Origin: Chelativorans xinjiangensis
GTDB taxonomy: Bacteria; Pseudomonadota; Alphaproteobacteria; Rhizobiales; Rhizobiaceae
Direction: 5' to 3'
Assembly: GCF_009812055.1 (NCBI RefSeq)
Contig: NZ_WQNH01000008.1
Span: 1-64,000 of the forward strand
DNA: 64,000 bases
Below, one piece after another: positions 19,611 to 38,953 of this stretch (within the stretch, counting starts at the first letter, position 1; every line of letters starts with the position of its first letter). The notes beneath the pieces are model-generated. The model was not told where the DNA came from and did no database searches. It worked only from the letters and a program-made list of their open reading frames with translations. Position numbers and translations under genes: made by a program.

Positions 19611-19620
19611 ATTTGATAAC

Positions 19621-20868: not shown

Positions 20869-20884
20869 GCGGCAAGGAGGCCCC

Positions 20885-22587: not shown

Positions 22588-24534
22588 TTGTGCGGCTTTG
22601 GTGGATATTTCGGCTCCGGCGTGGCGCCGGCTGAGGCGAAGCCGCTGCTTGAGCGGATGGCCTCTACTGTCGCGCACCGCGGTCCCGATGAACGCGGCGT
22701 GGCCGTCTTCGCCGACGCGGGCCTTTGTCACACGCGCCTGTCGATCGTCGGCCTTGCGGACGGCCAGCAGCCCATGTCCATCGGGGATGGGCGACTGTCC
22801 ATCGCCTTCAACGGAGAAATCTTCAATTATGTCGAGTTGCGTGAGGCGCTCCGCTCGCGCGGCAGGGTCTTCCACACCTCCAGCGACACCGAAATCATCC
22901 TGCATCTTTACGACGAGAGGGGGCCGGACTGCCTCGCCGACCTCAATGGAGATTTCGCCTTCGCCATCTGGGATGCGCAACACCGGCGCATGTTCCTTGC
23001 CCGCGACCGGATGGGCGTGCGCCCGCTGTTCTACACGACCGTCCGAAACACGCTCTTCTTCGCGTCGGAGGCGAAGGCGCTTTTGCGCGTGCCAGGTGTC
23101 GAAGCCGAAATAGATCCGGTTGCACTCGACCAGATCTTCACGCTCTGGGTGCCCATTGCTCCGCGCACCCCCTTCAAAGGCATCCATGAGCTCGAACCGG
23201 CGAGCATGATGATTGTCGAACAAGGCAAGCAAACGGTAAGGCCCTATTGGTCGCTTTCCTTTCCCGATCATTGTTCGCGCAGCCGCTACACGGACGAGAA
23301 CGCTGCTGCCGAGGAGTTGCGCGCACTGCTTGCGGATGCCACGCGTCTGCGCATGCGGGCCGACGTGCCGGTGGGCTCCTACCTTTCGGGCGGTCTCGAT
23401 TCCTCGATTGTCTCTGCGCTCGCGGCGGGCATGACACCGGAGGTGCTACGCACCTTTTCGGTCGCCTTCGACAGCGAGGAGCATGACGAGAGCGCCTTTC
23501 AGAAGGAGATGGCGGCCGCCCTCGGGACGATGCACAGCTCCGTGCAGTGCCGGGATGACGACATCGCCGCTGTCTTCCCCGAGGTCATCCGCTTTACGGA
23601 GCGGCCGATCCTGCGGACGGCGCCCGCGCCGCTTTTCAAGCTCTCCGCCCTCGTTCGCGAGAAGGGCTTGAAAGTCGTGCTTACGGGCGAGGGGGCGGAT
23701 GAGGTGTTCGCCGGTTACGACCTTTTCAAGGAGGCGCGGGTGCGCCGCTTCTGCGCGCGCCAGCCGGGCTCGCGCATCCGGCCCCATCTCTTCCGCAAGC
23801 TCTACCCCTACCTGCCGGGCCTCAAGCAGCAGTCGGCGGAATATCTGGCCGCCTTCTTCGGTGCGGGCGCGGATGCGCTCGACGATCCTCTGTTTTCCCA
23901 CAATCCCCGGTTTCGGGCGACCGGGGCGGCGAAGCTGTTCTTCTCCGCGGATCTGCGCGAGGCCCTTTCCGGCTACGACGCGGCGGAGGAACTGGCATCC
24001 CGCCTGCCGGCGGAGTTCGGCCGCTGGCATCCGCTGCACCAAGCGCAGTATCTGGAATCGCGATTCCTCCTGCCGGGCTACATTCTTTCGAGCCAGGGCG
24101 ATCGCATGGCGATGGCGCACGGTATCGAGGGGCGCTTTCCCTTCCTCGACCACAGATTGGTCGAGTTTGCCGCAACACTTCCGCCGGAGATGAAGCTGAA
24201 GCGGCTGGTCGAAAAGCATATCCTGCGCGAGGCGAGCAAAAACCTTCTGCCGGAAACGATCCTGCGACGGACAAAGCAGCCTTACCGCGCGCCCGACAGC
24301 CAGTCTTTCAGGGGGGCAGGCGAGAAGGACTACGTCCGCGAGGCCATGAGCGCGGAGAAGCTTGCCGCCGGCGGCCTCTTCAATCCGGCCTCTGTGTCCA
24401 AGCTCTTCGCGAAAAGCCGCCAGCAGCCGCTCACCGGGTTTCGCGACAACGCCGCCTTCGTCGGCATTCTTTCGTCTCAGCTCTGGCTCGAGACATTCAC
24501 GGGTTCGCGCTTCCGGGCCTCGGAGGCCGCGTAA
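22588..24534 (+). CDS. Asparagine synthase (glutamine-hydrolysing)-type amidotransferase
   Basis: The 648-residue protein has an N-terminal Ntn glutaminase domain and a C-terminal AsnB ATP-pyrophosphatase domain with SGGLDSS near residue 266 and LTGEGADEVFAGY. The glutaminase needs a cysteine right after the initiator, so translation must start at the TTG at 22588 (reading M-CGFGGYFGSG), although an in-frame ATG exists 33 bases upstream. RHGPDE-type (HRGPDERG) and FNGEIFNY blocks are intact. Its setting in a polysaccharide locus next to a carrier protein and ligase points to making a carboxamide on a sugar or acyl intermediate rather than free asparagine. Confidence 0.9.
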   Translation: MCGFGGYFGSGVAPAEAKPLLERMASTVAHRGPDERGVAVFADAGLCHTRLSIVGLADGQQPMSIGDGRLSIAFNGEIFNYVELREALRSRGRVFHTSSDTEIILHLYDERGPDCLADLNGDFAFAIWDAQHRRMFLARDRMGVRPLFYTTVRNTLFFASEAKALLRVPGVEAEIDPVALDQIFTLWVPIAPRTPFKGIHELEPASMMIVEQGKQTVRPYWSLSFPDHCSRSRYTDENAAAEELRALLADATRLRMRADVPVGSYLSGGLDSSIVSALAAGMTPEVLRTFSVAFDSEEHDESAFQKEMAAALGTMHSSVQCRDDDIAAVFPEVIRFTERPILRTAPAPLFKLSALVREKGLKVVLTGEGADEVFAGYDLFKEARVRRFCARQPGSRIRPHLFRKLYPYLPGLKQQSAEYLAAFFGAGADALDDPLFSHNPRFRATGAAKLFFSADLREALSGYDAAEELASRLPAEFGRWHPLHQAQYLESRFLLPGYILSSQGDRMAMAHGIEGRFPFLDHRLVEFAATLPPEMKLKRLVEKHILREASKNLLPETILRRTKQPYRAPDSQSFRGAGEKDYVREAMSAEKLAAGGLFNPASVSKLFAKSRQQPLTGFRDNAAFVGILSSQLWLETFTGSRFRASEAA

Positions 24535-24551
24535 GCTTTAAGGAGATGGGA

Positions 24552-24824
24552 ATGACGAACAACATCAAGGATAGCGTGCGCGCGTTCATCGTCGAGAATT
24601 TCCTATTCGGCGACACGTCCTTCGCACTCGAAGGAGACGCATCGCTCATCGAGAACGACATCATCGATTCGACCGGTGTGCTGGAGCTCGTCGCTTTCAT
24701 CGAAGAGCAGTTCGGACTGACCATGGCCGATGCTGACATCGTTCCGGCGAATCTCGATTCGCTCGACCGGATCGCTGCTTTCGTCAGCGCCAGAGTGGGC
24801 GCGGAGGCGTCTCTGTCCGCGTGA
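24552..24824 (+). CDS. Acyl carrier protein
   Basis: This is a 90-residue acidic four-helix carrier protein. Ser40 in NDIIDSTGVLELVAFIEEQFG is the expected phosphopantetheine site (DST in place of the fatty-acid-synthesis DSL, as in several dedicated carrier proteins). AGGAG at 24541-24545 is six bases before ATG 24552; the upstream ATG at 24546 is too close to it. It lies 17 bases after the AsnB-type gene and 22 before the ligase, and so is probably loaded by that ligase. Confidence 0.9.
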   Translation: MTNNIKDSVRAFIVENFLFGDTSFALEGDASLIENDIIDSTGVLELVAFIEEQFGLTMADADIVPANLDSLDRIAAFVSARVGAEASLSA

Positions 24825-24846
24825 GCGGGGAGGCTGGAGATCCGGT

Positions 24847-26391
24847 ATGCGTGTCGAAGAGTTCCTGAAACGCAGCGCCCTGGCCGATGGAGCCAAGACG
24901 GCTCTGATCTGCGGCCCCCGGCGGCTTTCCTACGACGAGATGGATGCGCTGTCCGACCGGTTGGCGGCAGCCTTGGCGTCGAGCGGCGTGCGCCGCAACG
25001 ACCGCGTCCTGGTCTTCATGGACAATTCCTGGGAGGCGGCGGTCTCCATCTTCGCCGTGCTGAAGGCCGGCGCCACCTTCAGCCCGATCAACGCTTCCAC
25101 CAAGGCCGAGAAACTTGCCTATGTGGCGGGGGATTGCGAGGCCGCGGCGGTGCTGACGCAGGCCAAGCTCCTGCCGGTCGCCGCCGAGGCGCGCGTGCTT
25201 TGCGGCCGGCCGTTCGTTCTCTTCTCCACGCAGAGGCCTGGGGAGGCTGTGCCGGACGGCGCCCTCTCCTTTGCCGAGGCTCTGACGACCGAGCCCGTTC
25301 CCGTTTCGCATGGCGGCATCGATGTCGATCTTGCCATGCTCATTTATACCTCCGGCTCCACCGGCCGCCCCAAGGGCGTGATGATGACGCACCGCAACGT
25401 GGAGGCGGCCGCCACATCCATTACCACCTACCTGCGCAACACGCGGGAAGACATTATCCTGAACGCCCTGCCGCTCGCCTTCGACTACGGGCTCTATCAG
25501 CTCCTGATGTCGGTCAAGCTCGGCGCGACACTGGTGCTGGAGAAGTCCTTCGCTTTCCCTCAGGCGATCTTCGAACTGATGCGCAAGGAAAAGGTGACCG
25601 GCTTTCCGCTGGTTCCCACCATGGCAGCGATGATCCTGCAGATGCGCGACCTCCAGCCCGGTTTCCTGCCGAGCCTGCGCTACTTTTCCAACACCGCCGC
25701 CGCCCTGCCGCCGCCCCATATCGCCCGGCTGCGTGAGCTGTGCCCGGGTGTCGATCTCTATTCCATGTACGGGCTCACCGAATGCAAGCGTTGCACCTAT
25801 CTGCCGCCGGAGGAGCTTGACCATCGGCCGGACTCGGTCGGCATCGCGATCCCGAATACCGAAGCTTTCGTGGTGGACGAGGACGGCAGGCCCGTTCCAC
25901 CCGGCACGGTGGGGGAATTGGTGATCCGTGGTCCGCACGTCATGCAGGGCTACTGGCGCAACGAGGAGGCGACGGCCAGGATGCTGCGACCGGGCCTCAA
26001 TCCGTGGGAGAAGGTGCTCTACACTGGAGATCTCTTCCGCACCGACGCCGACGGCTTCCTCTATTTCGTCGGCCGCAAGGACGACATCATCAAGACGCGC
26101 GGCGAGAAGGTGGCGCCCAAGGAGGTGGAGGCGGTCCTTCACGCCCATCCGTCAATCGCCGAAGCCGTGGTGACGGGCGTGGCCGATCCCGTGCTGGGCC
26201 ATGCCATCGCAGCCATGGTCGTCTCGACCGACCCAGCACTCTCCGAGCGCGACGTCATCCGCCATTGCGCCCGGCACCTGGAAGACTTCATGGTCCCGAA
26301 ACTCGTGCGGTTCGTCAGCGATCTGCCGAAGACGGACACGGGCAAGGTCAGCCGCAGGCTTGCGGCCGAAACGATAGAGCCAGCCGAATGA
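24847..26391 (+). CDS. AMP-forming acyl/aminoacyl ligase
   Basis: This 514-residue ANL superfamily enzyme has all core motifs: LIYTSGSTGRPKGVMMTH (about 166-183), YGLTECKRCTYL, YTGDLFRTDADGFLYFVGRKDD, IKTRGEKVAPKEVE, and the catalytic lysine in KTDTGKVSRR near residue 501. It activates a carboxylate as acyl-AMP and passes it to CoA or, more likely here, to the carrier protein encoded just upstream. The acid is unknown. It belongs to the family that includes ligases of exosortase-associated exopolysaccharide loci, but no exosortase is in the window. Its stop overlaps the next start (ATGA). Confidence 0.88.
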   Translation: MRVEEFLKRSALADGAKTALICGPRRLSYDEMDALSDRLAAALASSGVRRNDRVLVFMDNSWEAAVSIFAVLKAGATFSPINASTKAEKLAYVAGDCEAAAVLTQAKLLPVAAEARVLCGRPFVLFSTQRPGEAVPDGALSFAEALTTEPVPVSHGGIDVDLAMLIYTSGSTGRPKGVMMTHRNVEAAATSITTYLRNTREDIILNALPLAFDYGLYQLLMSVKLGATLVLEKSFAFPQAIFELMRKEKVTGFPLVPTMAAMILQMRDLQPGFLPSLRYFSNTAAALPPPHIARLRELCPGVDLYSMYGLTECKRCTYLPPEELDHRPDSVGIAIPNTEAFVVDEDGRPVPPGTVGELVIRGPHVMQGYWRNEEATARMLRPGLNPWEKVLYTGDLFRTDADGFLYFVGRKDDIIKTRGEKVAPKEVEAVLHAHPSIAEAVVTGVADPVLGHAIAAMVVSTDPALSERDVIRHCARHLEDFMVPKLVRFVSDLPKTDTGKVSRRLAAETIEPAE

Positions 26392-27398
26392 CACACCATT
26401 CCGTTCAAGACGCCGCTTTCTTTTCGTCCACGGCGCTCGCCATCGATCCTGCCGCCGAGACGGAACGGATCGTAGCCGCGCTCAGGGCCCAGCTGCGCTC
26501 GCTGCGCAAGCGCGGCCTCGTGCTGGGCGTGTCGGGGGGCGTGGATTCGAGCGTGTGCACCGCGCTCGCGGTCCGGGCGGTGGGCGCGAAGAACGTTCTC
26601 TGCGTCTTCATGCCGGAAAACGATTCCGATCCGGAGAGCCTTTCGCTCGGCCGGCAGGTCGCCCGGACCTTCGGCGTCGATAGCGGCATCGTGGAGGATA
26701 TCGGCCCGAGCCTTCAGGCGATGGGCTGCTATGAGCGGCGCGACAGCTTCATTCGCAAGCTCGTTCCCGACTACGGCCCCGGCTGGGCCTCGAAGATCGT
26801 CATCGCCAACGCGCTGGAAGGAGACGGCTACAACATCTCCTTCCTCGTGGTGCAGAATCCCGAAGGAAGGCAGACGAAGCTGCGGATGACGCCGGAGGTC
26901 TATCTGGGGGTCGTGGCGGCGACAAACATGAAGCAGCGCACCCGCAAACAGATCGAATACTACCACGCCGACAGGCTGAACTTCGCCGTCATCGGCACGC
27001 CCAACCGGCTCGAATATGACCAGGGCTTCTTCGTTAAGAACGGCGATGGAGCAGCCGACGTGAAGCCGATCGCCCATCTTTACAAGTCGCAAGTCTATGA
27101 GCTTGCCGCGCATCTTGGTGTCCCGGAAGAGATCCGACGCAGGCCGCCGACAACGGATACCTACTCGCTGCAGCAGACACAGGAGGAATTTTACTTTTCG
27201 CTCCCCTACGACCGGATGGACCTGTGCCTTTACGGCCTCAACCACGGCATACCGGCATCCGAGGTTGCGGCGGCGGCGGCGCTCACCGAGGAGCAGGTCC
27301 AGCGTATGTGGGCCGATATTGCGACCAAGCGCAAGACAACCCGCTACCTCCACCTCGGGCCTCAACTGGTCGAGACCGTAGCTGAAATCGCCTCCTGA
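26388..27398 (+). CDS. NadE-family (NAD+ synthase-like) amide synthetase
   Basis: The 336-residue N-type ATP pyrophosphatase has LVLGVSGGVDSSVCTALA (P-loop SGGVDSS at 49-55) and VIGTPNRLEYDQGFFVKNGDGAADVKPIAHLYKSQV, a block matching ammonia-dependent NAD synthase. There is no nitrilase domain. Its ATGA overlap with the ligase gene ties it to the carrier-protein cassette, so it is probably a paralogue that makes an amide on a pathway intermediate and not the cell's main NAD synthase. That reading is inferred from context. It converges on the GNAT gene with 12 bases between. Confidence 0.82.
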   Translation: MTHHSVQDAAFFSSTALAIDPAAETERIVAALRAQLRSLRKRGLVLGVSGGVDSSVCTALAVRAVGAKNVLCVFMPENDSDPESLSLGRQVARTFGVDSGIVEDIGPSLQAMGCYERRDSFIRKLVPDYGPGWASKIVIANALEGDGYNISFLVVQNPEGRQTKLRMTPEVYLGVVAATNMKQRTRKQIEYYHADRLNFAVIGTPNRLEYDQGFFVKNGDGAADVKPIAHLYKSQVYELAAHLGVPEEIRRRPPTTDTYSLQQTQEEFYFSLPYDRMDLCLYGLNHGIPASEVAAAAALTEEQVQRMWADIATKRKTTRYLHLGPQLVETVAEIAS

Positions 27399-27410: not shown

Positions 27411-28526
27411 CTAGTCGAACCTGCCGCCGATTAGCCGGCTCCAATGTTCGCCCGCAATGCCGTTCAGAAATCCCTCGCCCTCTTGAAGTCTAGGGACGAT
27501 CTCGGCATCGCGCGCATGCACGACGGTCGAGGCAAGATGCGTAAAGGCGACGCGCCGTCCGAGCATGGCTTCCAGCAGGGCCGGCTGGGTGCGGCCGCGC
27601 AGGCCGGCGAGACCTTGGTCCGCGGCGTGGGCGAACATGGCGTCGATCACGGCGTCCGCCTGGCCGGGAAGGGCAAGCAACTGCAGCACACGGCCGATGC
27701 GGCCTGGCCCGCCGTGATAGAAAAAGCCGCCAATCGCCCTGCCCGTCCGCGAAACGACTTTGCAGAACCTGGCAGGCCCGTATTCCTCCTTGCTTTGCGC
27801 GTCAGCGAGGACCTGCTCAAGCTGCCCCGGCGCCCATTCCGGCCGGAGGGGGAAGTGGGCGGTGAATGGCGCAACCAGCCCGGCGAAGTCGTCCCGGGTG
27901 ATTTCAACCGCTTTGCAGGCGCCCGCACCCTTCCAGTTTTCCGGTATGCCGGACCACCGCAAGGCATCCGCCGTCATGCGTCCGCGGGCGAGCGTATCCA
28001 TCATGCCCGCCAGTGGCGACAGCATCCGTAGCGCACGGACCTTCCCGGAAGCCGCTTGCGCAAGGAAGGAAAAGGGCCGGATCACGCGGACCCAGTCGAG
28101 ACTATATTGCGGCAGCTGCACGCCGCGCAGCCGCGTCCACATATTGGCCGACACCTCGCTCGCCGTCTCGCTGAAAGAGATGTCCTGAGGCCCGGCGAGG
28201 AATGCTTTCAGAAGCCGCGCGCCGGCCATGGGATCGCTCTCGCGATCTTCCACCATAAGCGAGCCGCAGATGGCCGCGCGCAGCGGCCGGCCCTCGAACG
28301 TCATTGGCAGCGTGGTCACGCCGATGAAGCCTGAAATGCTGCCGTCTTCCCTCAGATGCACGAGCGAGGCGATCTCCGGGTCGTGCCCCGGAAATTCTAG
28401 GTAAAGCCGCCGCAGATAGACGGCGAGCGCTTCGGGCGGGCGCCGGTGTCGATCCCTGAAGATGCGCTGAAACAGCCCGGTGACGGCCGGGATATCGTCC
28501 TCCCTTAGCGGCCGAACGGCTGTCAT
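27411..28526 (-). CDS. Double-GNAT acyltransferase-like protein 1
   Basis: The 371-residue protein has an N-terminal GNAT-like half (VRPLREDDIPAVTGLFQRIF, SLVHLREDGSISGFIGVTTLPM) and a C-terminal half of similar fold ending in the motif EHWSRLIGGRF. It is clearly homologous along its length to the protein at 30740-31915: both have DISFS/DFCFSD-type, LDWVRVIRPF/LEWRRVFRPF and the same C-terminal pattern. I know no characterised member. The start overlaps the stop of the PrmC-like gene (ATGA). The context suggests transfer of an acyl group in surface polysaccharide synthesis. Confidence 0.7.
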   Translation of the reverse strand: MTAVRPLREDDIPAVTGLFQRIFRDRHRRPPEALAVYLRRLYLEFPGHDPEIASLVHLREDGSISGFIGVTTLPMTFEGRPLRAAICGSLMVEDRESDPMAGARLLKAFLAGPQDISFSETASEVSANMWTRLRGVQLPQYSLDWVRVIRPFSFLAQAASGKVRALRMLSPLAGMMDTLARGRMTADALRWSGIPENWKGAGACKAVEITRDDFAGLVAPFTAHFPLRPEWAPGQLEQVLADAQSKEEYGPARFCKVVSRTGRAIGGFFYHGGPGRIGRVLQLLALPGQADAVIDAMFAHAADQGLAGLRGRTQPALLEAMLGRRVAFTHLASTVVHARDAEIVPRLQEGEGFLNGIAGEHWSRLIGGRFD

Positions 28527-29227
28527 TGCTCGTGCTTCTTGCGTGCGATCGCGACACGCGGCATGCCGGCGACGTCCGGGGCAAAGCGGACCGGCTCGTA
28601 GAAGCCGGCCCGGGTGAGGAGAATCTTGACCTGGCGGTCCTGCCCTTCGCCGAATTCGAAGGCAAGCCATCCGCCGGGCTTGAGAAAGGCCGCTGCTTCG
28701 CGCACGAGGCGCTGGTGGATCGAGAGACCGTAAGGCCCTCCGTCGAAGGCTTCCCTCGGTTCGTTTTCGAGCAGAGCGGAGCGGTCGCCTTCCAGCCGAA
28801 GGGTCGAGATATAGGGAGGGTTGCAGACGACGAGATCGGCTCTCCCCTCCAGCCCCTCATCCTGGAGCCCGGAGAAGAGGTCGCCCTGCACGACCTTGAC
28901 GGCGCCGGCGAGGCCGCAACGTTCCGCATTTCGCCGAGCAAGAGCCACGGTGTCGTCAGTGAGGTCGGATGCCCAGACCCTTGCCGTTGGAACCGCCGCA
29001 GCGATAGCCAGCGCGAGGTTGCCCGAGCCGCAGCACATGTCGATCACGATGGCTTCGCTGGACACTTCCCGCAGCAGTTCGACCGTGCTGCGGCCCAGAA
29101 GCTCCGTCTCTTCACGCGGCACCAGAACGCCGGGAGCCGTCTCCAACTCGATGCCCATGAAAAGCACCGACCGTGCCAATGGCGGCCTCTCTACAGGAAT
29201 TGCTTCGATCGTTTCTTGCTTCGCCAT
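28523..29227 (-). CDS. PrmC/HemK-like methyltransferase lacking the N-terminal domain
   Basis: The 234-residue class I methyltransferase has the PrmC pocket lead-in LETAPGVLVPREETELL, the SAM motif VIDMCCGSGNLALAIA and the catalytic VVCNPPYIS, which in PrmC/HemK methylates the glutamine of release factors. The helical N-terminal domain that PrmC uses to bind release factors is missing (about 285 residues are usual). An amide or planar nitrogen of a small substrate is therefore a better guess here than a release factor. It is coupled by ATGA to the GNAT gene and divergent from the flippase gene. Confidence 0.8.
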   Translation of the reverse strand: MAKQETIEAIPVERPPLARSVLFMGIELETAPGVLVPREETELLGRSTVELLREVSSEAIVIDMCCGSGNLALAIAAAVPTARVWASDLTDDTVALARRNAERCGLAGAVKVVQGDLFSGLQDEGLEGRADLVVCNPPYISTLRLEGDRSALLENEPREAFDGGPYGLSIHQRLVREAAAFLKPGGWLAFEFGEGQDRQVKILLTRAGFYEPVRFAPDVAGMPRVAIARKKHEQ

Positions 29228-29429
29228 CCCGCGCCCCTCTTCAAATCGAACTTCGATATAGTCGACACAGGTAAATGGAGCTTGAAGCGGGTTACGAAGC
29301 TTCTGGACGGCGCGTTAACCGCAAGATCATTCCCGCCGCGTATTAAGGCCCGAAGTGGAATAGAACGATTACCGGCGATCCGGTCTCTCGCCGGCTCGAG
29401 GGACGGCGCGCGGCAGGGCTTGGAATTTG

Positions 29430-30743
29430 ATGTTCAGGGGCAAGCACATCACAGGCGACTTCAGGTCCCTCCTTGCGACACTCACCACCTACGTGGCGTC
29501 GAGCGGCAGCCTTCTCGTCAGCTCCGCCGCGCAGTTGGTGACGTTCGCAATCCTCGCCCGATGGCTTGGCGTCGAAGAGTTCAGCCTGTTCGTGGCGATC
29601 ACCGCTATCTGCAGCGTCGCGCTACATCTGTGCGGACTCGGTGCCATGGAAACTCTGGTACGGCGGGTGGCGCGAGACCCTTCCGCCTATCCCGTCATGC
29701 TTGGTCACAATCTTATCCTGACGGGCATCAGCGGAATGATCCTGGTGGCTGCAGGGGCGGTTGTGCTGCCCTTCCTGTTCAAGCTTTCAGGCAGTCCGAT
29801 CCTCAATGTCGTCTTCATCATGGCCATGCTGGTCACGAATATCGTGCTCGTCCGGCTGATTGTGCTGACGGAGCAGATATTCATAGGACGCAGCGAGTTC
29901 GGCACGGCTAACATGGTGGTCGTCGGCTTCGCGGTCGCAAGGACGATCGCCGCGGTCTTGGCCTGCGTCATATTCGGCGTGTCGACGACGGGACAATGGG
30001 CGATCTGGCAGTTCGTCTGCCATGTCCTGGTCGCGCTCGTATGCTGCCGCGTGCTCATGCGGCTGGGTCGGCCCGAATTCAGGATCGTGCGGGAGGAGAT
30101 CATGAACGGGATCTACTTCAGCGTTCCGTTCATCCTCCGGGCCGCCCGTCAGAACGTCGATCTCCTGGTCCTAAGCCTCGTTTCGACCGCCGAGATCGTG
30201 TCGAGCTACAGCGTAGCCCGCAGGATGCTGGAAAGCAGTTATCTCTCGGTCGAGGCGCTCAATCGGCTCATCTATCCCGGCTCGGCGAGAGCCAGCGCGG
30301 GAGGACTGCACCACATGGCCAAGCGGGTCAAAAAAGTTCTTGCCGCTGCGACTTTGATCTCTGTCGCCGCGGCCATTGCCGTGTTTATCATCGCGCCGCT
30401 CTTGCCCTATCTGTTCGGCCACGACTACGTTTCGCTCGTCTCCTTCGTGCGCCAGATGTGCTGGATCGTCATTTTGCTCGCGATCTGGTCGGTTGCGGTG
30501 GAGGCGCTGGGCGCATCCGGTAATCACGCCTATCGCGGCACCGTGATGGCTCTCGGCAGTCTCTTCGGCGCTGTCTTGACCGCCTGGGCCAGCTGGTATG
30601 CGCCGCCGACAGGCACGATCGTTTCCCTCTACGTCATCGAGTTCGCAATGGTGGTGGCGTCATGGCTCGTCCTCGTGCACGTCATCCGCAAGAGCAAGGG
30701 TTCGGCGGCCGAGGCAAGTCTTCTTAGGGAGGCACAGCCATGA
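29430..30743 (+). CDS. Polysaccharide flippase (Wzx-like, MATE/MVF superfamily)
   Basis: The 437-residue membrane protein has about 12 predicted helices, with SSAAQLVTFAILARWLGVEEFSLFVAI at the N-terminus as in oligosaccharide repeat-unit flippases. It would move a lipid-linked repeat unit across the inner membrane. The ATG at 30430-type position is 29430; a TTG directly before it is less likely. The stop overlaps the start of the second double-GNAT gene (ATGA), which implies that acyl transfer and export are coordinated. Confidence 0.85.
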   Translation: MFRGKHITGDFRSLLATLTTYVASSGSLLVSSAAQLVTFAILARWLGVEEFSLFVAITAICSVALHLCGLGAMETLVRRVARDPSAYPVMLGHNLILTGISGMILVAAGAVVLPFLFKLSGSPILNVVFIMAMLVTNIVLVRLIVLTEQIFIGRSEFGTANMVVVGFAVARTIAAVLACVIFGVSTTGQWAIWQFVCHVLVALVCCRVLMRLGRPEFRIVREEIMNGIYFSVPFILRAARQNVDLLVLSLVSTAEIVSSYSVARRMLESSYLSVEALNRLIYPGSARASAGGLHHMAKRVKKVLAAATLISVAAAIAVFIIAPLLPYLFGHDYVSLVSFVRQMCWIVILLAIWSVAVEALGASGNHAYRGTVMALGSLFGAVLTAWASWYAPPTGTIVSLYVIEFAMVVASWLVLVHVIRKSKGSAAEASLLREAQP

Positions 30744-31915
30744 AGGCCATCGAGATGGACGATACCGGCGTCATGGTCGCGCCGGACAGCAAGGACATGG
30801 CGGCTGATCCGATCGTCGCACGGCGGCGGGGACGTGTGCGCCCGATGAAGAGAGGCGATATCGCCGCCGTCGCCAAGCTGTTCAACTGCATCTTCAGGAA
30901 GAACGAGGCGGACGGAAGCCGGGAGCTCAACCGCTACCTGGAGACGGTAACCTTCTCCAGCCCCCTTTACACGCCGGAAACCGGAAGCATCGTCCATGAG
31001 AATGCCGAAGGGGAGATCGACAGTGCCGTCCTATCCGTTCCCATGCAGCTGCAGGTAGGCGAAAGAACGCTTACGGCAAGGCTCCTTTGCGCCTTCATGG
31101 CAAAAGGCAAGTCCGGCGCCCTCGGCGCGGCCCATCTGGCAAGAACGTTTCGGGCGAAGCACCAGGATTTCTGCTTCTCCGACAATGCCTCGCCGCGTAG
31201 CGCCGATCACTGGGAGGCCGGCGGCGGGCACATATTGCCTATCCAGAGCCTGGAGTGGCGGCGCGTCTTCCGTCCTTTCACGAGCAACCTGCAGCGGCTT
31301 TACGTTGCCGCTCCGGCCTTGCGGAAGCTCCCGCTGCGCATCGTCGCCCTCCCGCTCGACCGGTTGGCCCGGCGGCTGTTGCCCTCCTTCAAGCCGGCCA
31401 CCGCCCCCGGATATCGCGTGGAGCCAGCGGGTTACGAGGAATTCAGGGAATATGCGAGCACCGTGCTCAAGCGCTTTTACGTGCGGCCCGCATGGTCGGC
31501 CGGGGAATTCTCCTGGCTTATCGGGCTGGCGAGTCAGAACCTCACGTGCGGCACGCTGAACTGCCGTAAGGTCCTCGACCCGAAGGGCGAGACAGCGGGC
31601 TTCGTGCTCTATTTCGGCGAAGCAAACGGCATCGCCCGGGTGCTCAACCTCATTTGCACCCAAGGAAGGGAGCGAGAGGTCGTCGGGCAGTTGTGCGCCT
31701 TTTTCGATACCGAAGGATATTGCGATGCAAGGGGCATGGCCCAGCCCTTCCTCATGAAGGCGATTATGCGGCAGCGGCAGCTCACCTTCAGGCACTCGGG
31801 CTATTTCTGCATGGTCAGCCGCCATTCCGAGATTGTGGACGCGGCTCTCTCTGGCGACATGTACATCGGCGGGCTTGCATCGGAAAGCTGGAGCAACCTG
31901 CTCGTCGCGTTCTGA
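30740..31915 (+). CDS. Double-GNAT acyltransferase-like protein 2
   Basis: The 391-residue protein is a paralogue of the product of 27411-28526. It has an extra N-terminal 35 residues, then VRPMKRGDIAAVAKLFNCIFRK, SIVHENAEGEIDSAVLSVPMQL, DFCFSDNASPRSADHW, LEWRRVFRPFTS and the C-terminal SESWSNLLVAF. Two GNAT-like halves are likely. No catalytic assignment can be made. It is translationally coupled to the Wzx-like flippase, so it probably modifies the repeat unit or acts at the membrane. Confidence 0.7.
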   Translation: MKAIEMDDTGVMVAPDSKDMAADPIVARRRGRVRPMKRGDIAAVAKLFNCIFRKNEADGSRELNRYLETVTFSSPLYTPETGSIVHENAEGEIDSAVLSVPMQLQVGERTLTARLLCAFMAKGKSGALGAAHLARTFRAKHQDFCFSDNASPRSADHWEAGGGHILPIQSLEWRRVFRPFTSNLQRLYVAAPALRKLPLRIVALPLDRLARRLLPSFKPATAPGYRVEPAGYEEFREYASTVLKRFYVRPAWSAGEFSWLIGLASQNLTCGTLNCRKVLDPKGETAGFVLYFGEANGIARVLNLICTQGREREVVGQLCAFFDTEGYCDARGMAQPFLMKAIMRQRQLTFRHSGYFCMVSRHSEIVDAALSGDMYIGGLASESWSNLLVAF

Positions 31916-32043: not shown

Positions 32044-33615
32044 ATGTATGAAGTAGCTGAACCGCGTCGCGGACCCGCAAAGCCGGCCCGGAACCGAGCC
32101 AAAAACCTGCATGCGCGGGGCTCACTTCTCAACCTGCTTTCCAACCCGCCCGCGACAGAGGAAGCGGAACCTGCCGCTGCACCGGCGCGGGAAGCGGAAC
32201 CGGCCCTTGCACCGGCGCCACCTGTGCGCGGGAGCGCGGCCGACTATCTGGAAAAGCTGCGCCGAATCTCCCCGGACGACGTTCTCTTCTGGCTCGACCG
32301 CGGAAAGGTCCTGGTCGTTTCCTTGGTGCTTCTTTGCGTGGCGGCGGCTTTCGCCTACGCCATCACCGCATCGCCGCGCTACACGGTCTATACCGATATC
32401 GTGGTGGACCCGGCCAATCTGCAGGTGGTCACCGACGACGTGTTCGCCAGCAATCCGCAGCGCGACACGCAACTGCTCGAGGTGGAAAGCAAGCTGAGGA
32501 TCCTCACCTCGCGCAATGTGCTGAACCGCGTCATCAGCGATCTGAACCTTACCGAAGACCCCGAATTCGTGAAACCCGACTGGTTGGCCCCCCTAAAGCG
32601 GCTTATCTCCAGCGGACCTGCTTCCGAAAACCGGCAACTGGCGGTTTTGCGCGCGCTTTCGGAGCGCGTGGAAGCGCGCAGGGAGGAGCGCTCCTACGTG
32701 GTCGTCCTCAGCGTGTGGACGGAAGACCCGATGAAGTCTGTCACCCTTTCCGACGCCATCGTCGACGCCTTCGAGGCCGAGGTGTTCGAAACCGCGGCCG
32801 GGAGTGCGGGGCGCGTGGCTGCAAGCATCAGCGAGCGGCTGGACGAGTTGCGCGCCAACGTCGCGGAGGCGGAGGCCCGCGTGGAGACGTTCAAGCGCGA
32901 AAGCGGTCTGCAGTCGAACGACGGCGAACTCGTCAGTATGCGCCTTTCCGGCGAACTGAACAATCAGGTGCTCGAAGCCCAGGAACGTCAAATCCAGCTC
33001 GAAATGCGTTACCGCCAACTGCGGCAGGCGCTGGAAGAGCAGCGCACTACCGCCTCCCCCGTGTTCCAGTCGGAAACGCTTATCGATCTGCGTGCGCAGC
33101 ATGACCGTCTGCAGCAACAGTTGGGGGCGCTCGCGCTGGTCTACCTCGACAGGCATCCGCGCCTGCAGGCGATCAGGACCGAGCTTTCCTCCGTGCAGCG
33201 TGCGATCTCGGCCGAAGCGCAGCGCATCGTCGATGCCGCGAGGATCGACGCCGAGCAGGCCCGCACGGTAGCCGAGGAATTGCGGCTGAAAACGCGAGAT
33301 GAAGAGGCGAAGGTCTTCGATGACAGCAGCGCTCAGGTGACCCTGCGCGAACTGGAGCGCGATGCCCGGGCGAAGGCCGCGCTCTACGAGACCTACCTCT
33401 CGCGCAGTCAGCAGATTACGGAGCGTCAGCAGATCGACACCAGCAACATCCGGGTGATTTCGCGCGCCGTGCCGCCCAAATCACGAAGCTGGCCGCCTCG
33501 CACGATGATACTGCTTGCAGCCGGCGCCTTTGCAGGGCTCTTGCTGGGCCTCTTCGCCGCCCTGACGCTCGGCTTGTTCGGATATCTTCGCGAGCCGCAA
33601 CGCCGCGCCGTGTGA
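32044..33615 (+). CDS. Chain-length determinant (Wzz/GumC type) without kinase domain
   Basis: This 523-residue polysaccharide co-polymerase has a cytoplasmic Ala/Pro/Glu-rich N-terminus with a short imperfect repeat (EAEPAAAPAREAEPALAPAP), a transmembrane helix at about 88-108, a periplasmic Wzz domain, long coiled coils (about 240-420), a proline-glycine-poor PPKSRSWPPRTM lead and a second helix near the end. The C-terminal tyrosine kinase of ExoP-type proteins is absent, and no separate kinase gene is nearby. It controls polymer length together with the Wzy-like protein 16 bases downstream. Confidence 0.85.
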   Translation: MYEVAEPRRGPAKPARNRAKNLHARGSLLNLLSNPPATEEAEPAAAPAREAEPALAPAPPVRGSAADYLEKLRRISPDDVLFWLDRGKVLVVSLVLLCVAAAFAYAITASPRYTVYTDIVVDPANLQVVTDDVFASNPQRDTQLLEVESKLRILTSRNVLNRVISDLNLTEDPEFVKPDWLAPLKRLISSGPASENRQLAVLRALSERVEARREERSYVVVLSVWTEDPMKSVTLSDAIVDAFEAEVFETAAGSAGRVAASISERLDELRANVAEAEARVETFKRESGLQSNDGELVSMRLSGELNNQVLEAQERQIQLEMRYRQLRQALEEQRTTASPVFQSETLIDLRAQHDRLQQQLGALALVYLDRHPRLQAIRTELSSVQRAISAEAQRIVDAARIDAEQARTVAEELRLKTRDEEAKVFDDSSAQVTLRELERDARAKAALYETYLSRSQQITERQQIDTSNIRVISRAVPPKSRSWPPRTMILLAAGAFAGLLLGLFAALTLGLFGYLREPQRRAV

Positions 33616-33631: not shown

Positions 33632-34948
33632 ATGCAGTCGGCGCAACTGACGGCCGTCGATCTGCCGGAGGGCGGGCTTCAGACGGCGGCACGCACGGTG
33701 CTGTTCATGGCGCTGTTCTTCTTCCTCTGGATCTCGCTGAACCCGTTCGTGGACTTGACGGGCGAGGCGGCTCTCGATCCCTCCGCGAGCAATTCGAACC
33801 GGCTCAACCAGCTTGTCTTCCTCGGGCTGTTCGGCGGCATCCTGCTTTTCGGAATGCTGCATCCGCTGCGCGGCGCGATATTCCAGCCGCTTGCGCTGCT
33901 GGTACCGCTTTTCTGCTGGATTCTGTTCGTCTCCATGATCTCCAGCCACCCGATGCTGGGCGTCAAGGGCGTCGTGCTGGCAGTCCTCGTGACGGTGAAT
34001 GCGAGCATTTACCTGCTCATTCCCGCGTCGGAGCGCCACTTTGCCAAAATGATCGCGTTTGGCACGATGGCGGTGCTGGCGCTCTCCTATTTCGGGATTA
34101 TCTTCAAGCCGACGCTCGCCATTCACCAGGCGTCCGAACTGCGCGAGCCGATGAACGCCGGATTTTGGCGCGGGCATTTCCCGCACAAGAACAGCGCCGC
34201 CGCAGCCATGGTCGTCTCCACCTTCTTCGGCCTCTTCGTCATGCGCGCGTGGTCGCGCGTTGGCGGTGCGGCCATCGCGGTGCTGGCGGCGTTTTTCCTG
34301 TTCAATACGGGGGGTAAGACATCCAGTGCGATGCTGCCGGCGATCATCGTCCTTACGTGGGCATTCGAGCGGTTCCGCATCCTGCGGGTGCCCATCGCCG
34401 TCGGAGGCATCGCTCTGTTCAACCTGCTGGCCATCGGCTCGGCGGTCATCAAGCCGTTCGGCGAACTGCTCACGAATCTCGGCATCGACGCGACCTTTAC
34501 CAACCGCGCCGATATCTGGCGGTTCGCCTTTTCGGCAATTGCCGACAGCCCCATCCTGGGGCACGGGTTCAAGGCGTTCTGGCAGACGGAGGAGCTGGTC
34601 TACAGCGGCGGCACGATAGAAACCTGGGCCGTGGCCGCCGCCAATGGGCACAACTCCTACCTCGACATCACCCTCATGACGGGAGTGCCGGGGCTCGTGC
34701 TGACGCTGATCTGGATCGTTTTCCTCCCCCTTCGCGACATTTCGCGCATAAGGCCGGAGGAACAGCGTTCGCCCTTGACCCGGCTCTACACGCGCATCTG
34801 GCTTTACACTCTGTTCAACGCCGGCCTCGAAAGCCTGTTTTACGAAGGGGGCAACCCGCTCTGGTTCACCTTTTTGCTGGCGCTTTATGGATTCCGTTAC
34901 CAATCTTCTGCCCAAATCGTCCATTCACCGAGAAGACTAGCGGGGTAG
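33632..34948 (+). CDS. O-antigen ligase/polymerase-like membrane protein (Wzy/ExoQ type)
   Basis: The 438-residue protein has about 11 transmembrane segments and a large periplasmic loop with ANGHNSYLDITLMTGVPGL, the hallmark of the Wzy_C (O-antigen ligase) family, plus RADIWRFAFSAIADSPILGHGF before it. It resembles rhizobial ExoQ-type polymerases. It would polymerise repeat units after flipping. Context between Wzz and a deacetylase supports polymerase rather than ligase. Confidence 0.87.
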   Translation: MQSAQLTAVDLPEGGLQTAARTVLFMALFFFLWISLNPFVDLTGEAALDPSASNSNRLNQLVFLGLFGGILLFGMLHPLRGAIFQPLALLVPLFCWILFVSMISSHPMLGVKGVVLAVLVTVNASIYLLIPASERHFAKMIAFGTMAVLALSYFGIIFKPTLAIHQASELREPMNAGFWRGHFPHKNSAAAAMVVSTFFGLFVMRAWSRVGGAAIAVLAAFFLFNTGGKTSSAMLPAIIVLTWAFERFRILRVPIAVGGIALFNLLAIGSAVIKPFGELLTNLGIDATFTNRADIWRFAFSAIADSPILGHGFKAFWQTEELVYSGGTIETWAVAAANGHNSYLDITLMTGVPGLVLTLIWIVFLPLRDISRIRPEEQRSPLTRLYTRIWLYTLFNAGLESLFYEGGNPLWFTFLLALYGFRYQSSAQIVHSPRRLAG

Positions 34949-34952: not shown

Positions 34953-35723
34953 GTGCGGGGTCTTGCGAGGAAAGCCGATGAACTGATCGACCGCGCCGTC
35001 AACCGTCTCGTCTGGAGGACGGCGGAGGAGGAGCGGGAGGTGCTGACGGACGTACCGCTGGTCACCTTCACGTTCGACGACGTACCGGAGACGGCTCTGA
35101 CCAACGGCGCGGCAATCCTGGAGAGGCATGGCGCCCGGGGCACCTTCTATGTGGCCGGCGGCATCGCCTCGCGCGTGGAGCGCGATCGCACGCTGATATC
35201 GAGGGAGGGCTGCCGCGAGCTCTCGATGCGCGGGCACGAGATCGGCTGCCACACCTTCGCGCACCGGAAGCTCCGCTCCCTGGGCGCCGACCTTGAGGCG
35301 GATCTGGAAAGAAACGCAGCCTACCTGTCGGCGGCCGGCGTCGAGCCACCTATTCGCAATTTCGCGTTTCCCTACAACGCAGCCTGGCCCCTGGCGCGAC
35401 CGACGCTTCGCGCGCGTTATCTCACGTGCAGGGGAGCGGGCGAGGCCATCAACCGCGGCAAGGTCGATCATCTCATGCTCAAGGCCGTGGAGATCCGGCA
35501 GCCCGAGGCCTATGCCCGCTCGGCGACCCGGTGGGTGGACGACGTAGCGGCAACGCCTGGATGGCTGATCTTCTTCACGCACGACATCGCCGATACGCCG
35601 ACCCAGTTCGGCTGCACCCCGGAGACATTCGAGCATCTGGTCGCCTATTCAGCGAAGAGCTGCAGGATCGTGACGATCGGCGAAGCTGTCGCACTGCTCG
35701 GCTGGGAGGGGGCAAGCCGATGA
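34953..35723 (+). CDS. NodB-type polysaccharide deacetylase
   Basis: The 256-residue protein has FTFDDVPE (metal-binding aspartate pair) and RGHEIGCHTFAH (the two metal histidines) of carbohydrate esterase family 4. It would remove an acetyl group from an N-acetyl hexosamine, exposing an amine. There is no signal peptide, so it may act in the cytoplasm on lipid-linked intermediates. GTG 34953 starts only four bases after the Wzy-like stop. Its stop overlaps the next glycosyltransferase (ATGA). A free amine would be a natural acceptor for the acyl group made by the upstream cassette. Confidence 0.88.
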   Translation: MRGLARKADELIDRAVNRLVWRTAEEEREVLTDVPLVTFTFDDVPETALTNGAAILERHGARGTFYVAGGIASRVERDRTLISREGCRELSMRGHEIGCHTFAHRKLRSLGADLEADLERNAAYLSAAGVEPPIRNFAFPYNAAWPLARPTLRARYLTCRGAGEAINRGKVDHLMLKAVEIRQPEAYARSATRWVDDVAATPGWLIFFTHDIADTPTQFGCTPETFEHLVAYSAKSCRIVTIGEAVALLGWEGASR

Positions 35724-36985
35724 CCATAGATGCGCCGCGGCTGCTTGCCATCAACAACTACTTCTACCGACGGGGAGGGGCCGAAGCGGTTTTCTTCGAT
35801 CACATGGCGCTGTTTGCCGAGATCGGCTGGGATGTCGTGCCTTTCGCCATGCAGCACGACAGGAACGAGCCCTCCGCGTGGTCCGACTACTTCATCTCCG
35901 AGATCGAGTACGGCAACCAGCACGGCGCGCTCACGAAGGCAATGCACGCCGCCAAGGTCATCTATTCGCTGGAAGCCCAGCGCAAGCTTTCAAGGCTGAT
36001 CGAAGCCGCGCCGCCAACGATCGCGCATGCGCACAATGTCTATCATCACCTATCGCCGGCCGTCTTCTCAACGCTGAAGGCAGCGGGGATTCCCGTGGTC
36101 ATGACCGCGCATGACCTGAAGCTTGGCTGCCCCGCCTATAAGATGCTGCGCCGGGGCGTCGTTTGCGAGAAGTGCAAGGGAGGGCGCATCCACAACGTGG
36201 TCCTGAACCGCTGCGTGAAGGATTCCTTCGCCGTGAGCGGCATCGTGTTTGTCGAGACAATCGTGCACCGGTTGCTCGGGCTCTATCGGGACAAGGTCGA
36301 CCGCTTCGTCGTTCCGAGCCGCTTCTATCGCGAGAAGCTCATCGAGTGGGGCTGGCCGGCCGAGAAGCTCGTCTACATCCCGAATTTCGTCAACGCATCG
36401 CATCTGAGGACGGATTGGGCGGAGCAGGACCATTTCGTCTACGCTGGAAGGCTGGCGCCGGAGAAAGGTATTACCACGCTCATTCGCGCCGCGGCCTTGT
36501 CCAGGCAGAAGCTCGTCATCGCCGGCACCGGGCCGGAGGAGGCGGCGTTGCACGCTCTAGCTCGCGATAGCGGCGCCGATGTCTCGTTTGCCGGCTATAT
36601 GTCGGGCGAAAGCCTCCACCGTCTGATCGGCGGGGCGAAGGCTCTAGTCCTTCCTTCCGAATGGTACGAGAACGCGCCAATCAGCATTCTGGAAGCGTAT
36701 GCGCTCGGAAAGCCGGTCATAGGCTCCGCCATCGGCGGCATTCCGGAGATGATCAAGGAAGGCGAGACGGGCTATACGGCTGAAGCCGGATCGCCCGAAA
36801 GCCTCGCGCAAGCCATGCTCACCGTGGCGTCCCTGTCGGCTGCTGAGCGCGCCGCGATGGGAATGCGCGGTAAAGAGTGGGTCTTGACCGAGTTTTCGGC
36901 AACGCGCTACCGGCAACGCATGCTCGACCTTTATGCCGCCCTTGTTTCGTCCGACCTCGGCGATATGCGGCGGCACGGAACGTAG
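35720..36985 (+). CDS. Glycosyltransferase family 4
   Basis: This 421-residue GT-B retaining glycosyltransferase has the N-terminal INNYFYRRGGAEAVFFDHM, a cysteine-rich middle (LGCPAYKMLRRGVVCEKCKGG, ending with NRCVKDS) seen in several exopolysaccharide transferases, and the nucleotide-sugar EX7E region SEWYENAPISILEAYALGKPV. It transfers a sugar from a nucleotide donor to the growing lipid-linked unit. It is coupled to the deacetylase by ATGA and followed by copy 2 of the two-hairpin repeat. Confidence 0.88.
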   Translation: MTIDAPRLLAINNYFYRRGGAEAVFFDHMALFAEIGWDVVPFAMQHDRNEPSAWSDYFISEIEYGNQHGALTKAMHAAKVIYSLEAQRKLSRLIEAAPPTIAHAHNVYHHLSPAVFSTLKAAGIPVVMTAHDLKLGCPAYKMLRRGVVCEKCKGGRIHNVVLNRCVKDSFAVSGIVFVETIVHRLLGLYRDKVDRFVVPSRFYREKLIEWGWPAEKLVYIPNFVNASHLRTDWAEQDHFVYAGRLAPEKGITTLIRAAALSRQKLVIAGTGPEEAALHALARDSGADVSFAGYMSGESLHRLIGGAKALVLPSEWYENAPISILEAYALGKPVIGSAIGGIPEMIKEGETGYTAEAGSPESLAQAMLTVASLSAAERAAMGMRGKEWVLTEFSATRYRQRMLDLYAALVSSDLGDMRRHGT

Positions 36986-36993
36986 TTCCTTGG

Positions 36994-37163: not shown

Positions 37164-38450
37164 ATGTCCGACGTCAACACCGCAGCCGCCTGCGAGGGCC
37201 ACGGCGCTAAGCCGCGAAAGCCGTCTGGTGGGCTTCTCCACACGTCCGAGCAGCCCATGCCTGCGGCAGCACTTCGCGCCGCCCGACCAGCCTCCGACGC
37301 CGTTCACCTGTCTTTGCCGGCCTCGACCGCCGCGTTCCGGAAGGGACGCGTCACCATGCTCGGCCTGCGCGGCATTCCCAACGTTCAAGGCGGGGTGGAG
37401 CGGCATGTCGAAATGCTCGGGTGCGAGCTCATTCGCCTCGGCTGGCATGTCACCGTAATCGGGCGCCGGTCATACCTGCCTGAAAAGGAGGCGACCAGCT
37501 GGAACGGCATCGATGTGGTGCCGATCTGGTCACCGCGGAAGGTGGCGCTGGAGGCAGCCGTCCACACACTTCTCGGCGTGCTTTATTCCGGTCTCCATCG
37601 GCCGGATATCCTGCACATTCATGCGATCGGCCCCTCGCTCATGGTGCCGCTCGCCCGGCTCCTTGGTCTGAAGGTCGTCGTGACCCACCACGGCTTCGAC
37701 TATAACCGGCAAAAATGGGGCCCTGTCGCCAAGAGGATCCTGAAACTCGGCGAGTCGCTCGGTATGCGATTCGCCAACGGGCGTATCGCGATCGCTGGCG
37801 GCATCGCGGAGGCGATGCAGACCCGCTATGGCGTTCCCGTCAGCTTTATTCCCAACGGTGTCGCCATCCATATCGCCGAGGATGGAGGGAAGGCGCTCGA
37901 GCGCTCCGACTTGTCCCCGCAAGGCTACATCCTGACGGTGGCGCGCCTTGTCCCGGAAAAGCGCCAGACCGACCTGATCGACGCCTTCGCCAAGCTGAAG
38001 AACCCGACCCACAAGCTGGTGATTGTCGGCGGCAGCGAGTTCGAGACCCCCTATTCCCGCCAGCTCGCGGAAAAGGCACGCGAGGTGCCGGGCGTCGTCA
38101 TGACCGGCTTCCAGACTGGGGACAGCCTCGCAGCGCTCTTCGCGAACGCTGCGCTCTTCGTCCTGCCGTCCAGCCACGAGGGAATGCCGATAGCGCTTCT
38201 GGAGGCGCTCGGGCACGGCCTGCCTATTCTTGCAAGCGACATCCCTGCCAATCTGGAAGTGGGCTTGCCGACGGAAGATCACTTCCCCTTGGGCGACGTC
38301 GATGCCTTGGCCGCGGCGATCGAGCGCAAGCTCTCCGCCATCTCTTCACAGGAGGAACGGCGCCGCAAGGCCCGGCAGATCGAGGATCGTTATGGCTGGG
38401 CCTCGATCGCCGAGCGGACGGCCGCCGTCTACCGCTCGCTGCTGGCCTGA
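37164..38450 (+). CDS. Glycosyltransferase family 4
   Basis: This 428-residue GT-B enzyme has LRGIPNVQGGVERHVEMLG at the glycine-rich acceptor end of the N-domain, TVARLVPEKRQTDLIDAF, and SSHEGMPIALLEALGHGLPILAS with the conserved EX7E. The first 60 residues (to AAFRKGRVTM) are not conserved. ATG 37164 follows GGAGAGG and is preferred; a frame extension into the preceding repeat is ignored. It likely adds another sugar of the same repeat unit as the previous transferase. Confidence 0.87.
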   Translation: MSDVNTAAACEGHGAKPRKPSGGLLHTSEQPMPAAALRAARPASDAVHLSLPASTAAFRKGRVTMLGLRGIPNVQGGVERHVEMLGCELIRLGWHVTVIGRRSYLPEKEATSWNGIDVVPIWSPRKVALEAAVHTLLGVLYSGLHRPDILHIHAIGPSLMVPLARLLGLKVVVTHHGFDYNRQKWGPVAKRILKLGESLGMRFANGRIAIAGGIAEAMQTRYGVPVSFIPNGVAIHIAEDGGKALERSDLSPQGYILTVARLVPEKRQTDLIDAFAKLKNPTHKLVIVGGSEFETPYSRQLAEKAREVPGVVMTGFQTGDSLAALFANAALFVLPSSHEGMPIALLEALGHGLPILASDIPANLEVGLPTEDHFPLGDVDALAAAIERKLSAISSQEERRRKARQIEDRYGWASIAERTAAVYRSLLA

Positions 38451-38472: not shown

Positions 38473-38931
38473 ATGTCCCGGCATGGAAAAGCACGCCGCC
38501 ATCGCCTCATGGGACTGCTGGTCTGGGCGCGACGGGCCGCGCCGTGGCTGATCTTCGCCGCTATTCTTCTGGCTACGCTTTCGCCGCTCGACATGCGTCC
38601 CCGCACGGGGTCCGTCCATGCGGAACGCTTCGCCGCCTTTGCCCTTCTTGGTTCCCTCTATGCTGTTGCCTTCCCGAGGCGCCTGGTTCTCGTCTGCATC
38701 ATCGTCGCCTTCTCGACCGTCGCGCTTGAGCTCCTGCAACTGAGCCTGACGGATCGTCATCCCCGCTTTTCCGATCTCGCGGTGAAACTCGCCGGTGGTG
38801 CAGGGGGCATTTTCATTACCTGGATATCGCTGCGCCTCCTCGCGCGCCGCCGCAAGCGCCCGCAAGAGGCCAATACGGACTGGCCGCACTGGTCTGCGCG
38901 CAGGAACCATCATCCGCGTGCAGGCGCGTGA
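38473..38931 (+). CDS. VanZ-like family membrane protein
   Basis: The 152-residue protein has three to four transmembrane segments and the VanZ pattern: LSPLDMRPRTG, HAERFAAFALLG, a central ALELLQLSL followed by DRHPRFSDLAVKLAGG. VanZ-type proteins are frequent in exopolysaccharide and exosortase loci; their biochemical function is not settled. It lies 22 bases after the glycosyltransferase and 22 before the GT2 gene. Confidence 0.8.
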   Translation: MSRHGKARRHRLMGLLVWARRAAPWLIFAAILLATLSPLDMRPRTGSVHAERFAAFALLGSLYAVAFPRRLVLVCIIVAFSTVALELLQLSLTDRHPRFSDLAVKLAGGAGGIFITWISLRLLARRRKRPQEANTDWPHWSARRNHHPRAGA

Positions 38932-38953
38932 GCAGTCGGAAGAGGGGGCGATC

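Follow-up and report, generated by a model that had tools for sequence, protein, structure and literature searches.

Positions 22588–27398 of a 64,000-nucleotide stretch of the Chelativorans xinjiangensis genome (referred to below as the window; contig C97 of the 5.69-Mb genome) encode an AsnB-type glutamine amidotransferase, a stand-alone carrier protein, an AMP-forming acyl/aminoacyl ligase and a NadE-like ammonia-dependent amide synthetase. These four genes are a real co-inherited unit. We consider it about an even chance that this cassette forms one pathway with two acyltransferases, GNAT1 and GNAT2, and, in most relatives, a PrmC-like methyltransferase, and that this pathway places an amide-containing, probably aminoacyl, group on the carrier and transfers it to a sugar amine of a Wzx/Wzy polysaccharide. 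A dedicated carrier-protein cassette tied to surface polysaccharide had been proposed from the sequence alone; co-inheritance, linkage and one genome with its separated AsnB gene at a Wzx/Wzy block (see below) bear this out. The interpretation offered in that sequence-only reading is supported with regard to the cassette and the carrier-based unit and fell short in overlooking GNAT1, GNAT2 and the PrmC-like methyltransferase; a small VanZ-like gene also went unmentioned.

Coordinates and family matches confirmed the four genes, the families ascribed to them and the ATGA coupling. All are located on the forward strand with intergenic distances of 17, 22 and -4 bases, the last being the ATGA overlap of the ligase and NadE-like genes. 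The AsnB gene (22588..24534) starts with TTG, giving Met-Cys-Gly and hence a Cys as residue 2, as needed by glutamine-hydrolysing enzymes such as those of the AsnB type. Its product contains the SGGLDSS motif, matches PF00733 and a GATase domain, and exceeds the cut-off of TIGR01536 (505 vs. 267 bits), a match that, as judged from sequence, is one of superfamily membership only and does not indicate the acceptor. It stays under the equivalog cut-off of asparagine synthase B proper (PRK09431; 330.6 vs. 499 bits), and its nearest solved chain is 7ylz, a hydroxyamidotransferase. The carrier protein (24552..24824), with the phosphopantetheine site DST (IIDSTG), passes no curated cut-off (best NCBIfam 52 vs. 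130 bits; no Pfam match at 0.01), and the closest proteins of solved structure are peptidyl carrier proteins. For the ligase (24847..26391; PF00501, 318 bits, and PF13193) the nearest solved chains are adenylation domains of nonribosomal peptide synthetases (NRPS), while the best NCBIfam, TIGR03098, is matched under its cut-off. The NadE-like protein (26388..27398; PF02540), which carries an insertion of about 40 residues, falls by sequence into the PRK00876 subfamily of NAD+ synthases (NF002048; 524.2 bits, cut-off 313).

A scan with the NadE-like protein yielded 145 confirmed relatives, the best 80 of which were kept; these are the closest ones and give little information on distant relatives. 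The sequence-only reading had named a lack of linkage in relatives as evidence against itself, and the opposite was found: the four genes occur on the same strand and in the same order in 79 of the 80, spanning 4.3–4.9 kb, the exception being a 3-kb contig (L075). When genes were called on 83 loci, i.e., the 80 relatives, two stretches of Sinorhizobium meliloti pSymB and the window, the cassette order was recovered in 80, each of two further loci (L084 and L085) having one uncalled gene that was found by tblastn, and ligase and NadE-like genes overlapped by 4 bases in 74 of the 80 called cassettes. Within the taxonomic family, the ligase (E ≤ 1e-130) was present in 17 of 81 sampled genomes and the NadE-like protein over cut-off in the identical 17, with the two adjoining in every case according to the listed coordinates; neither was present in the remaining 64. 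Some of the family copies may be decayed, since an in-frame stop lies within the ligase or NadE-like match in 4 of the 17. Two family genomes contain a second ligase copy, next to a partial NadE-like match near a contig end in one of them (L151) and with no other cassette genes within 19.5 kb in the other (L150).

In a sample of the phylum, NF002048 was matched over cut-off in 15 of 398 genomes including our own, and the next best score was 92.8 bits, such that this group is sharply separate from the other sampled proteins. The other 14 genomes comprise seven from the same family, three from the same order and four from other classes. Each of these more distant genomes has all four genes, linked in 13 of the 14, in one of three orders (AsnB-ACP-ligase-NadE, NadE-AsnB-ligase-ACP or AsnB-ligase-ACP-NadE, where ACP denotes the carrier protein). 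In the fourteenth (G265) carrier, ligase and NadE-like genes stand together and an AsnB of 69% identity is encoded on a different contig, immediately preceding genes for Wzx, GNAT2, Wzz, Wzy, a deacetylase and a glycosyltransferase, an arrangement which ties AsnB to polysaccharide and indicates that the four genes are retained even when split. Conservation across relatives thus excludes chance linkage of the four genes. As a separate observation, NF002048 was also matched over cut-off in one of 14 control genomes, that of the archaeon Methanosarcina acetivorans.

The residues on which catalysis by these families depends are intact. Among the orthologues, 94 of 95 AsnB proteins retain Cys2, 95 of 96 carriers the Ser and all 96 the Asp, all 96 ligases both Lys500 and Arg315, all 97 NadE-like proteins SGGxDSS and all 57 methyltransferases the NPPY motif. 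Ligase Asp213 corresponds in the alignment to the FD-motif Asp of domains that adenylate amino acids, where this residue binds the amino group. It is present in 84 of 96 ligases, the other 12 having Gly, Ser, Ala, Thr or Asn along with correlated changes at positions 283 and 314. Together with the invariant Arg315, Asp213 suggests, at the level of sequence, an acidic amino acid as the ligase substrate in most loci. The methyltransferase was found in the fetched stretch of 57 of the 84 loci with Asp213 vs. none of the 12 without it, a pattern seen in loci of the GNAT type as well as in those of the thioesterase type (Fisher P = 6e-6, not to be taken at face value given the relatedness of the sequences, the repeated counting of S. 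meliloti and the unequal flanks).

Comparison of 23 NadE-like proteins with 15 housekeeping NadE sequences showed the former to retain the ATP loop along with almost every core motif. In contrast, Gln183, Lys187, Val216 and Thr258, invariant in the NadE-like proteins, correspond to Ala (14/15), Met, Thr and Leu (15/15 each) in NadE, and a His that is invariant in NadE is replaced at position 313. A structural model of the NadE-like protein (predicted local distance difference test score, pLDDT, 84.3; 24 sequences) has the NadE fold, with 2e18 as best match (TM-scores 0.62/0.81), and the insertion absent from NadE forms a helix and three strands. Among the top structural matches is 3fiu, a nicotinamide mononucleotide synthetase and hence a relative of NadE with a different substrate. 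Sequence and model together indicate that the protein is probably a NadE-family enzyme with altered substrate, which may, as far as its sequence goes, still synthesize NAD.

Three further genes are probable partners of the cassette. GNAT1 (27411..28526, reverse strand, convergent to the cassette) has neither a Pfam nor an NCBIfam match, and its AlphaFold2 model (pLDDT 93.5) consists of two GNAT folds in tandem. In Foldseek the best matches were N-myristoyltransferases (E ~1e-12, TM-score 0.46–0.50), and the highest TM-scores among the matches listed belonged to Eis-type GNATs (2i00, 0.58), a fold from which we infer a putative N-acyltransferase. Overlapping GNAT1 by 4 bases is the gene for a PrmC/HemK-like S-adenosylmethionine-dependent methyltransferase with an NPPY motif (28523..29227, reverse strand), which exceeds the cut-off of the HemK family (TIGR00536; 148.5 vs. 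115.5 bits) and stays under the PrmC equivalog cut-off (181.1 vs. 199.1 bits); a separate housekeeping PrmC is encoded elsewhere in the genome (277 bits, contig C64). GNAT2 (30740..31915, forward strand) is a homologue of GNAT1 (30% identity) and overlaps the Wzx gene by 4 bases. Flanks of up to 10 kb were fetched, and the following partner counts are therefore lower bounds: among the 83 loci, GNAT homologues were called in 73, the methyltransferase in 51, Wzz in 39, Wzy in 34 and the deacetylase in 31. S. meliloti 1021 has both the complete polysaccharide block and the cassette on pSymB (L145:7863-25134 and 35586-39996), about 10 kb apart with minCDE between them, the block having the order GT2-VanZ-GT4-GT4-deacetylase-Wzy-Wzz-GNAT2-Wzx-methyltransferase-GNAT1, where GT denotes glycosyltransferase. 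Its Wzz might be SMb21506. In Rhizobium sp. RCAM05350 (L037) the GNAT and Wzx genes of the locus are duplicated.

Each of the 14 distant genomes has, in the vicinity of its cassette, a gene for a protein able to transfer or release acyl groups, which lies within 20 bases and on the same strand in 12. Seven are thioesterases (PF00975; L123, L124, L125, L128, L130, L132 and L133, with a distance of 355 bases in L132), six are GNATs (L126, L127, L129, L131, L134 and L135) and one is a hexapeptide acyltransferase (L136). In L129, which belongs to the genome with the split AsnB, the GNAT gene is about 1.75 kb away on the opposite strand, and an amidase gene (PF01425, 7656-9239) lies between it and the carrier-ligase-NadE-like genes. 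The proteins from L131 and L135 have no Pfam match of their own and were classed as GNATs by BLAST, with 31–58% identity to each other and to that from L134, which alone of the three passes PF00583, and only just (23.6 vs. 20.7 bits); profile comparison of the distant GNATs against the GNAT1 alignment gave a weak match or none. In three thioesterase loci the gene encodes a mini-NRPS of 863–929 residues with an AMP-binding part, a GGDSL carrier motif and a thioesterase (L123:2500-5115, L128:10459-13251 and L130:6822-9416). This gene lies next to the NadE-like gene or is translationally coupled to it, an arrangement suggesting release of the cassette product, or its transfer to an NRPS-like step, as a further outcome. 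Of the four genomes from other classes, three have glycosyltransferase homologues close to the cassette (L134–L136).

For the pathway proposed here, we infer every substrate, the sequence of reactions and the final product. From knowledge of the families, it is close to certain as a type of chemistry that the ligase loads a small acid onto the carrier. The ligase would adenylate the acid, perhaps an acidic amino acid whose amino group would meet Asp213 and whose second carboxylate would meet Arg315, and load it onto the carrier Ser. Glutamine-dependent AsnB and the ammonia-dependent NadE-like enzyme would then convert carboxylates into carboxamides via adenylated intermediates, one of them having the acyl group on the carrier as its substrate and the other a further carboxylate of either the acyl group or a uronic acid; amidation of the free carboxylate of an acidic amino acid would yield an Asn/Gln-like group. 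Where present, the PrmC-like enzyme might N-methylate the amide. Relatives of PrmC methylate the amide nitrogen of a Gln side chain, and activity of this type would explain why the methyltransferase co-occurs with Asp213 ligases. The deacetylase could free the sugar amine to which a GNAT would transfer the finished group, and Wzx and Wzy would assemble the polymer. A more specific version, which we put forward tentatively and regard as somewhat improbable, holds that a NadE-family enzyme was recruited from NAD synthesis to form, together with an AsnB-type enzyme, a carboxamide on a carrier- or sugar-bound acid, that a PrmC-family enzyme N-methylates this amide and that rhizobial polysaccharides including that of S. 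meliloti pSymB would contain an N-acylated sugar bearing (N-methyl)carboxamide groups.

In D-alanylation by the Dlt system, a small carrier protein holds the activated acid until it is transferred to an acceptor. The comparison with Dlt drawn in the sequence-only reading holds for function only, as the carrier scores below the cut-off of the DltC model (17.3 vs. 68 bits); a membrane O-acyltransferase was not found among the scanned genes. The butirosin side chain is likewise formed from an activated acid on a small carrier protein before transfer (PMC6133997), and the cassette differs from both systems by two additional amide-forming enzymes. In loading modules for glutarimide polyketides, consisting of an acyl carrier protein (ACP), an acyltransferase (AT) and an AsnB-type amidotransferase (AMT), the latter is proposed to amidate the free carboxylate of the ACP-bound acid (PMC4853412); these modules, however, are loaded by the acyltransferase, feed a polyketide synthase and include no NadE-like enzyme. 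A close parallel in polysaccharide biosynthesis is the Wbp/Vim linking-sugar pathway, where AsnB-type WbpS makes a uronamide, as shown by deletion, and GNAT-like VimA with the deacetylase VimE equips the same amino sugar with Ser or Gly, the product being an amino-acylated amino sugar with a uronamide (PMC7468200). Like the locus studied here, it combines an AsnB-type amidotransferase, a deacetylase and a GNAT-like transferase near Wzx, the GNAT likeness being taken at the level of enzyme type, whereas ligase, carrier protein, NadE-like enzyme and methyltransferase are not described for it in the passages of that source considered here. Our genome yielded neither an exosortase nor a link to type IX cargo, exosortase having been checked as XrtA (TIGR03109, no match at E 0.001). 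The XrtA/PEP-CTERM exopolysaccharide set nevertheless provides the nearest NCBIfam relative of the ligase (TIGR03098; 456.7 bits, cut-off 592.35) and the second nearest of AsnB (TIGR03108; 442.9 bits, cut-off 816.9). A literature search, with most subscription papers outside its scope, found no description of this gene set; each enzyme family is known, and their combination and strict co-inheritance appear to be undescribed.

Several points weigh against a single pathway towards an acylated sugar. Two amide-forming enzymes exceed what a single carboxamide needs, and the absence of Asp213 from 12 ligases means that an amino-acid substrate is not general. GNAT is the immediate neighbour of the cassette in 52 of the 83 loci and not in every one, and Wzx is in the flanks of only 38, so that the link to polysaccharide is often not visible nearby. 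Genes for GNATs, thioesterases and acyltransferases are moreover common, and those of the distant genomes were classed after they had been seen and without a base rate; the thioesterases and mini-NRPS that take the place of GNAT in seven of these genomes fit a released small molecule equally well. Such a compound, amidated, perhaps N-methylated and amino-acid- or peptide-like, to which the polysaccharide neighbourhood would be secondary, is decidedly unlikely in our view. It would account for the thioesterases, of which three are fusions with an AMP-binding region and a GGDSL carrier motif, and for the 45 loci in which no Wzx was called within the flanks, but it does not fit the prevalence of GNAT homologues, the split AsnB at the Wzx/Wzy block of G265 or the glycosyltransferase homologues near the cassette in other classes. 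The same split AsnB, standing apart from carrier, ligase and NadE-like genes, can also be taken to mean that the roles are divided: AsnB would act like WbpS as a uronamide synthase on a nucleotide-sugar uronic acid, ligase and carrier would only deliver the acyl group for GNAT, and the NadE-like enzyme would make a second sugar amide or amidine, so that amide and acyl group would end up on the same sugar but be made apart. The WbpS precedent, based on deletion and mass spectrometry (PMC7468200), speaks for this explanation, as does the fact that the next AsnB-type NCBIfam after AsnB itself, TIGR03108, is one of exopolysaccharide loci. We consider it unlikely all the same: outside G265 the cassette genes are never apart in the loci examined, even where their order is shuffled, which favours one pathway, and no genes for a uronic-acid pathway were identified among the annotated locus genes, no dedicated search having been directed at them.

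That the cassette merely pairs an unrelated ligase with a redundant NAD synthase and with the enzyme that serves the genome as asparagine synthase is very improbable, even though the NadE core motifs are retained and existing annotations name the genes nadE and asnB. The possibility that they are the only NAD synthase and asparagine synthase, named in the sequence-only reading as a weak point, no longer applies to NAD, since a separate NadE exists (254 bits, contig C27). It is not as cleanly dismissed for AsnB, which is the only AsnB-type protein of the genome outside the N-acetylglutaminylglutamine amidotransferase (NAGGN) family, the sole other PF00733 match above 30 bits being the member of that family (TIGR03104, 1006 bits). 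No asparaginyl-tRNA synthetase was found over cut-off in this genome (best 87 bits), whereas GatB was (542 bits), a combination that would allow asparagine synthesis on tRNA; this, and the lack of ligase and NadE-like protein in most sampled genomes of the family, eases the concern. Absence of the cassette from most genomes sampled in family and phylum, the family-specific residues and insertion of the NadE-like protein and its strict linkage to ligase and carrier likewise argue against housekeeping functions. The NAGGN enzyme, which serves in formation of an osmolyte dipeptide, scores well over its cut-off and is located at C43:46977-48005 (L006). A link between the cassette and AsnO/FixT of S. 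meliloti, which came up since AsnO is homologous to AsnB, was dropped because the NAGGN-type protein, which we take AsnO to be, is a separate gene in our genome.

The remainder of the locus agrees with the sequence-only reading in containing Wzx, Wzz, Wzy, deacetylase and glycosyltransferase genes, all confirmed by Pfam matches. On the forward strand follow a Wzx-type flippase (29427..30743; PF01943), a Wzz/GumC-type chain-length protein (32044..33615; PF02706 and PF13807), a Wzy-type polymerase (33632..34948; PF04932), a polysaccharide deacetylase (34953..35723; PF01522, with TFDD and HTFAH in the translation), two group 1 glycosyltransferases (35720..36985 and 37164..38450; both PF00534), the small VanZ-like membrane protein (38509..38931), which has no NCBIfam match and whose syntenic counterpart in S. 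meliloti is annotated as VanZ family, and a family 2 glycosyltransferase (38918..39952; PF00535). C. xinjiangensis is a soil bacterium with kinship to the root-nodule bacteria, and the closest relative with a name that the search recovered is Chelativorans alearense (L009), with locus proteins that are mostly 92–97% identical. Upstream of the cassette, a PALP-family enzyme and a pyridoxal phosphate-dependent decarboxylase (PF00282) are encoded at 19603-22369 on the forward strand; they were not included in the unit, as they were matched, within the flanks, only in L009 among the 80 relatives. At the other end of the locus, genes for an AraC-type regulator (40939-41925) and a phenylalanine 4-monooxygenase (40085-40876) stand side by side on the reverse strand. 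The nearest solved chain of the regulator is 5nla, with only 41.8 bits over residues 132–325. We take 5nla to be CuxR, a c-di-GMP receptor, and as an AraC-type gene closes the locus, a CuxR/uxs1 polysaccharide was considered as a tentative possibility.

Across many Rhizobiales, the model symbiont S. meliloti among them, the cassette predicts a defined chemical modification of a polysaccharide on the cell surface. Genes annotated here as nadE and asnB are suggested to encode specialised sugar- or acyl-modifying enzymes, which poses a risk of mis-annotation for metabolic models. Should the NadE-like enzyme indeed act on a carrier-bound or sugar acid, this would represent a new substrate class for the NadE family.

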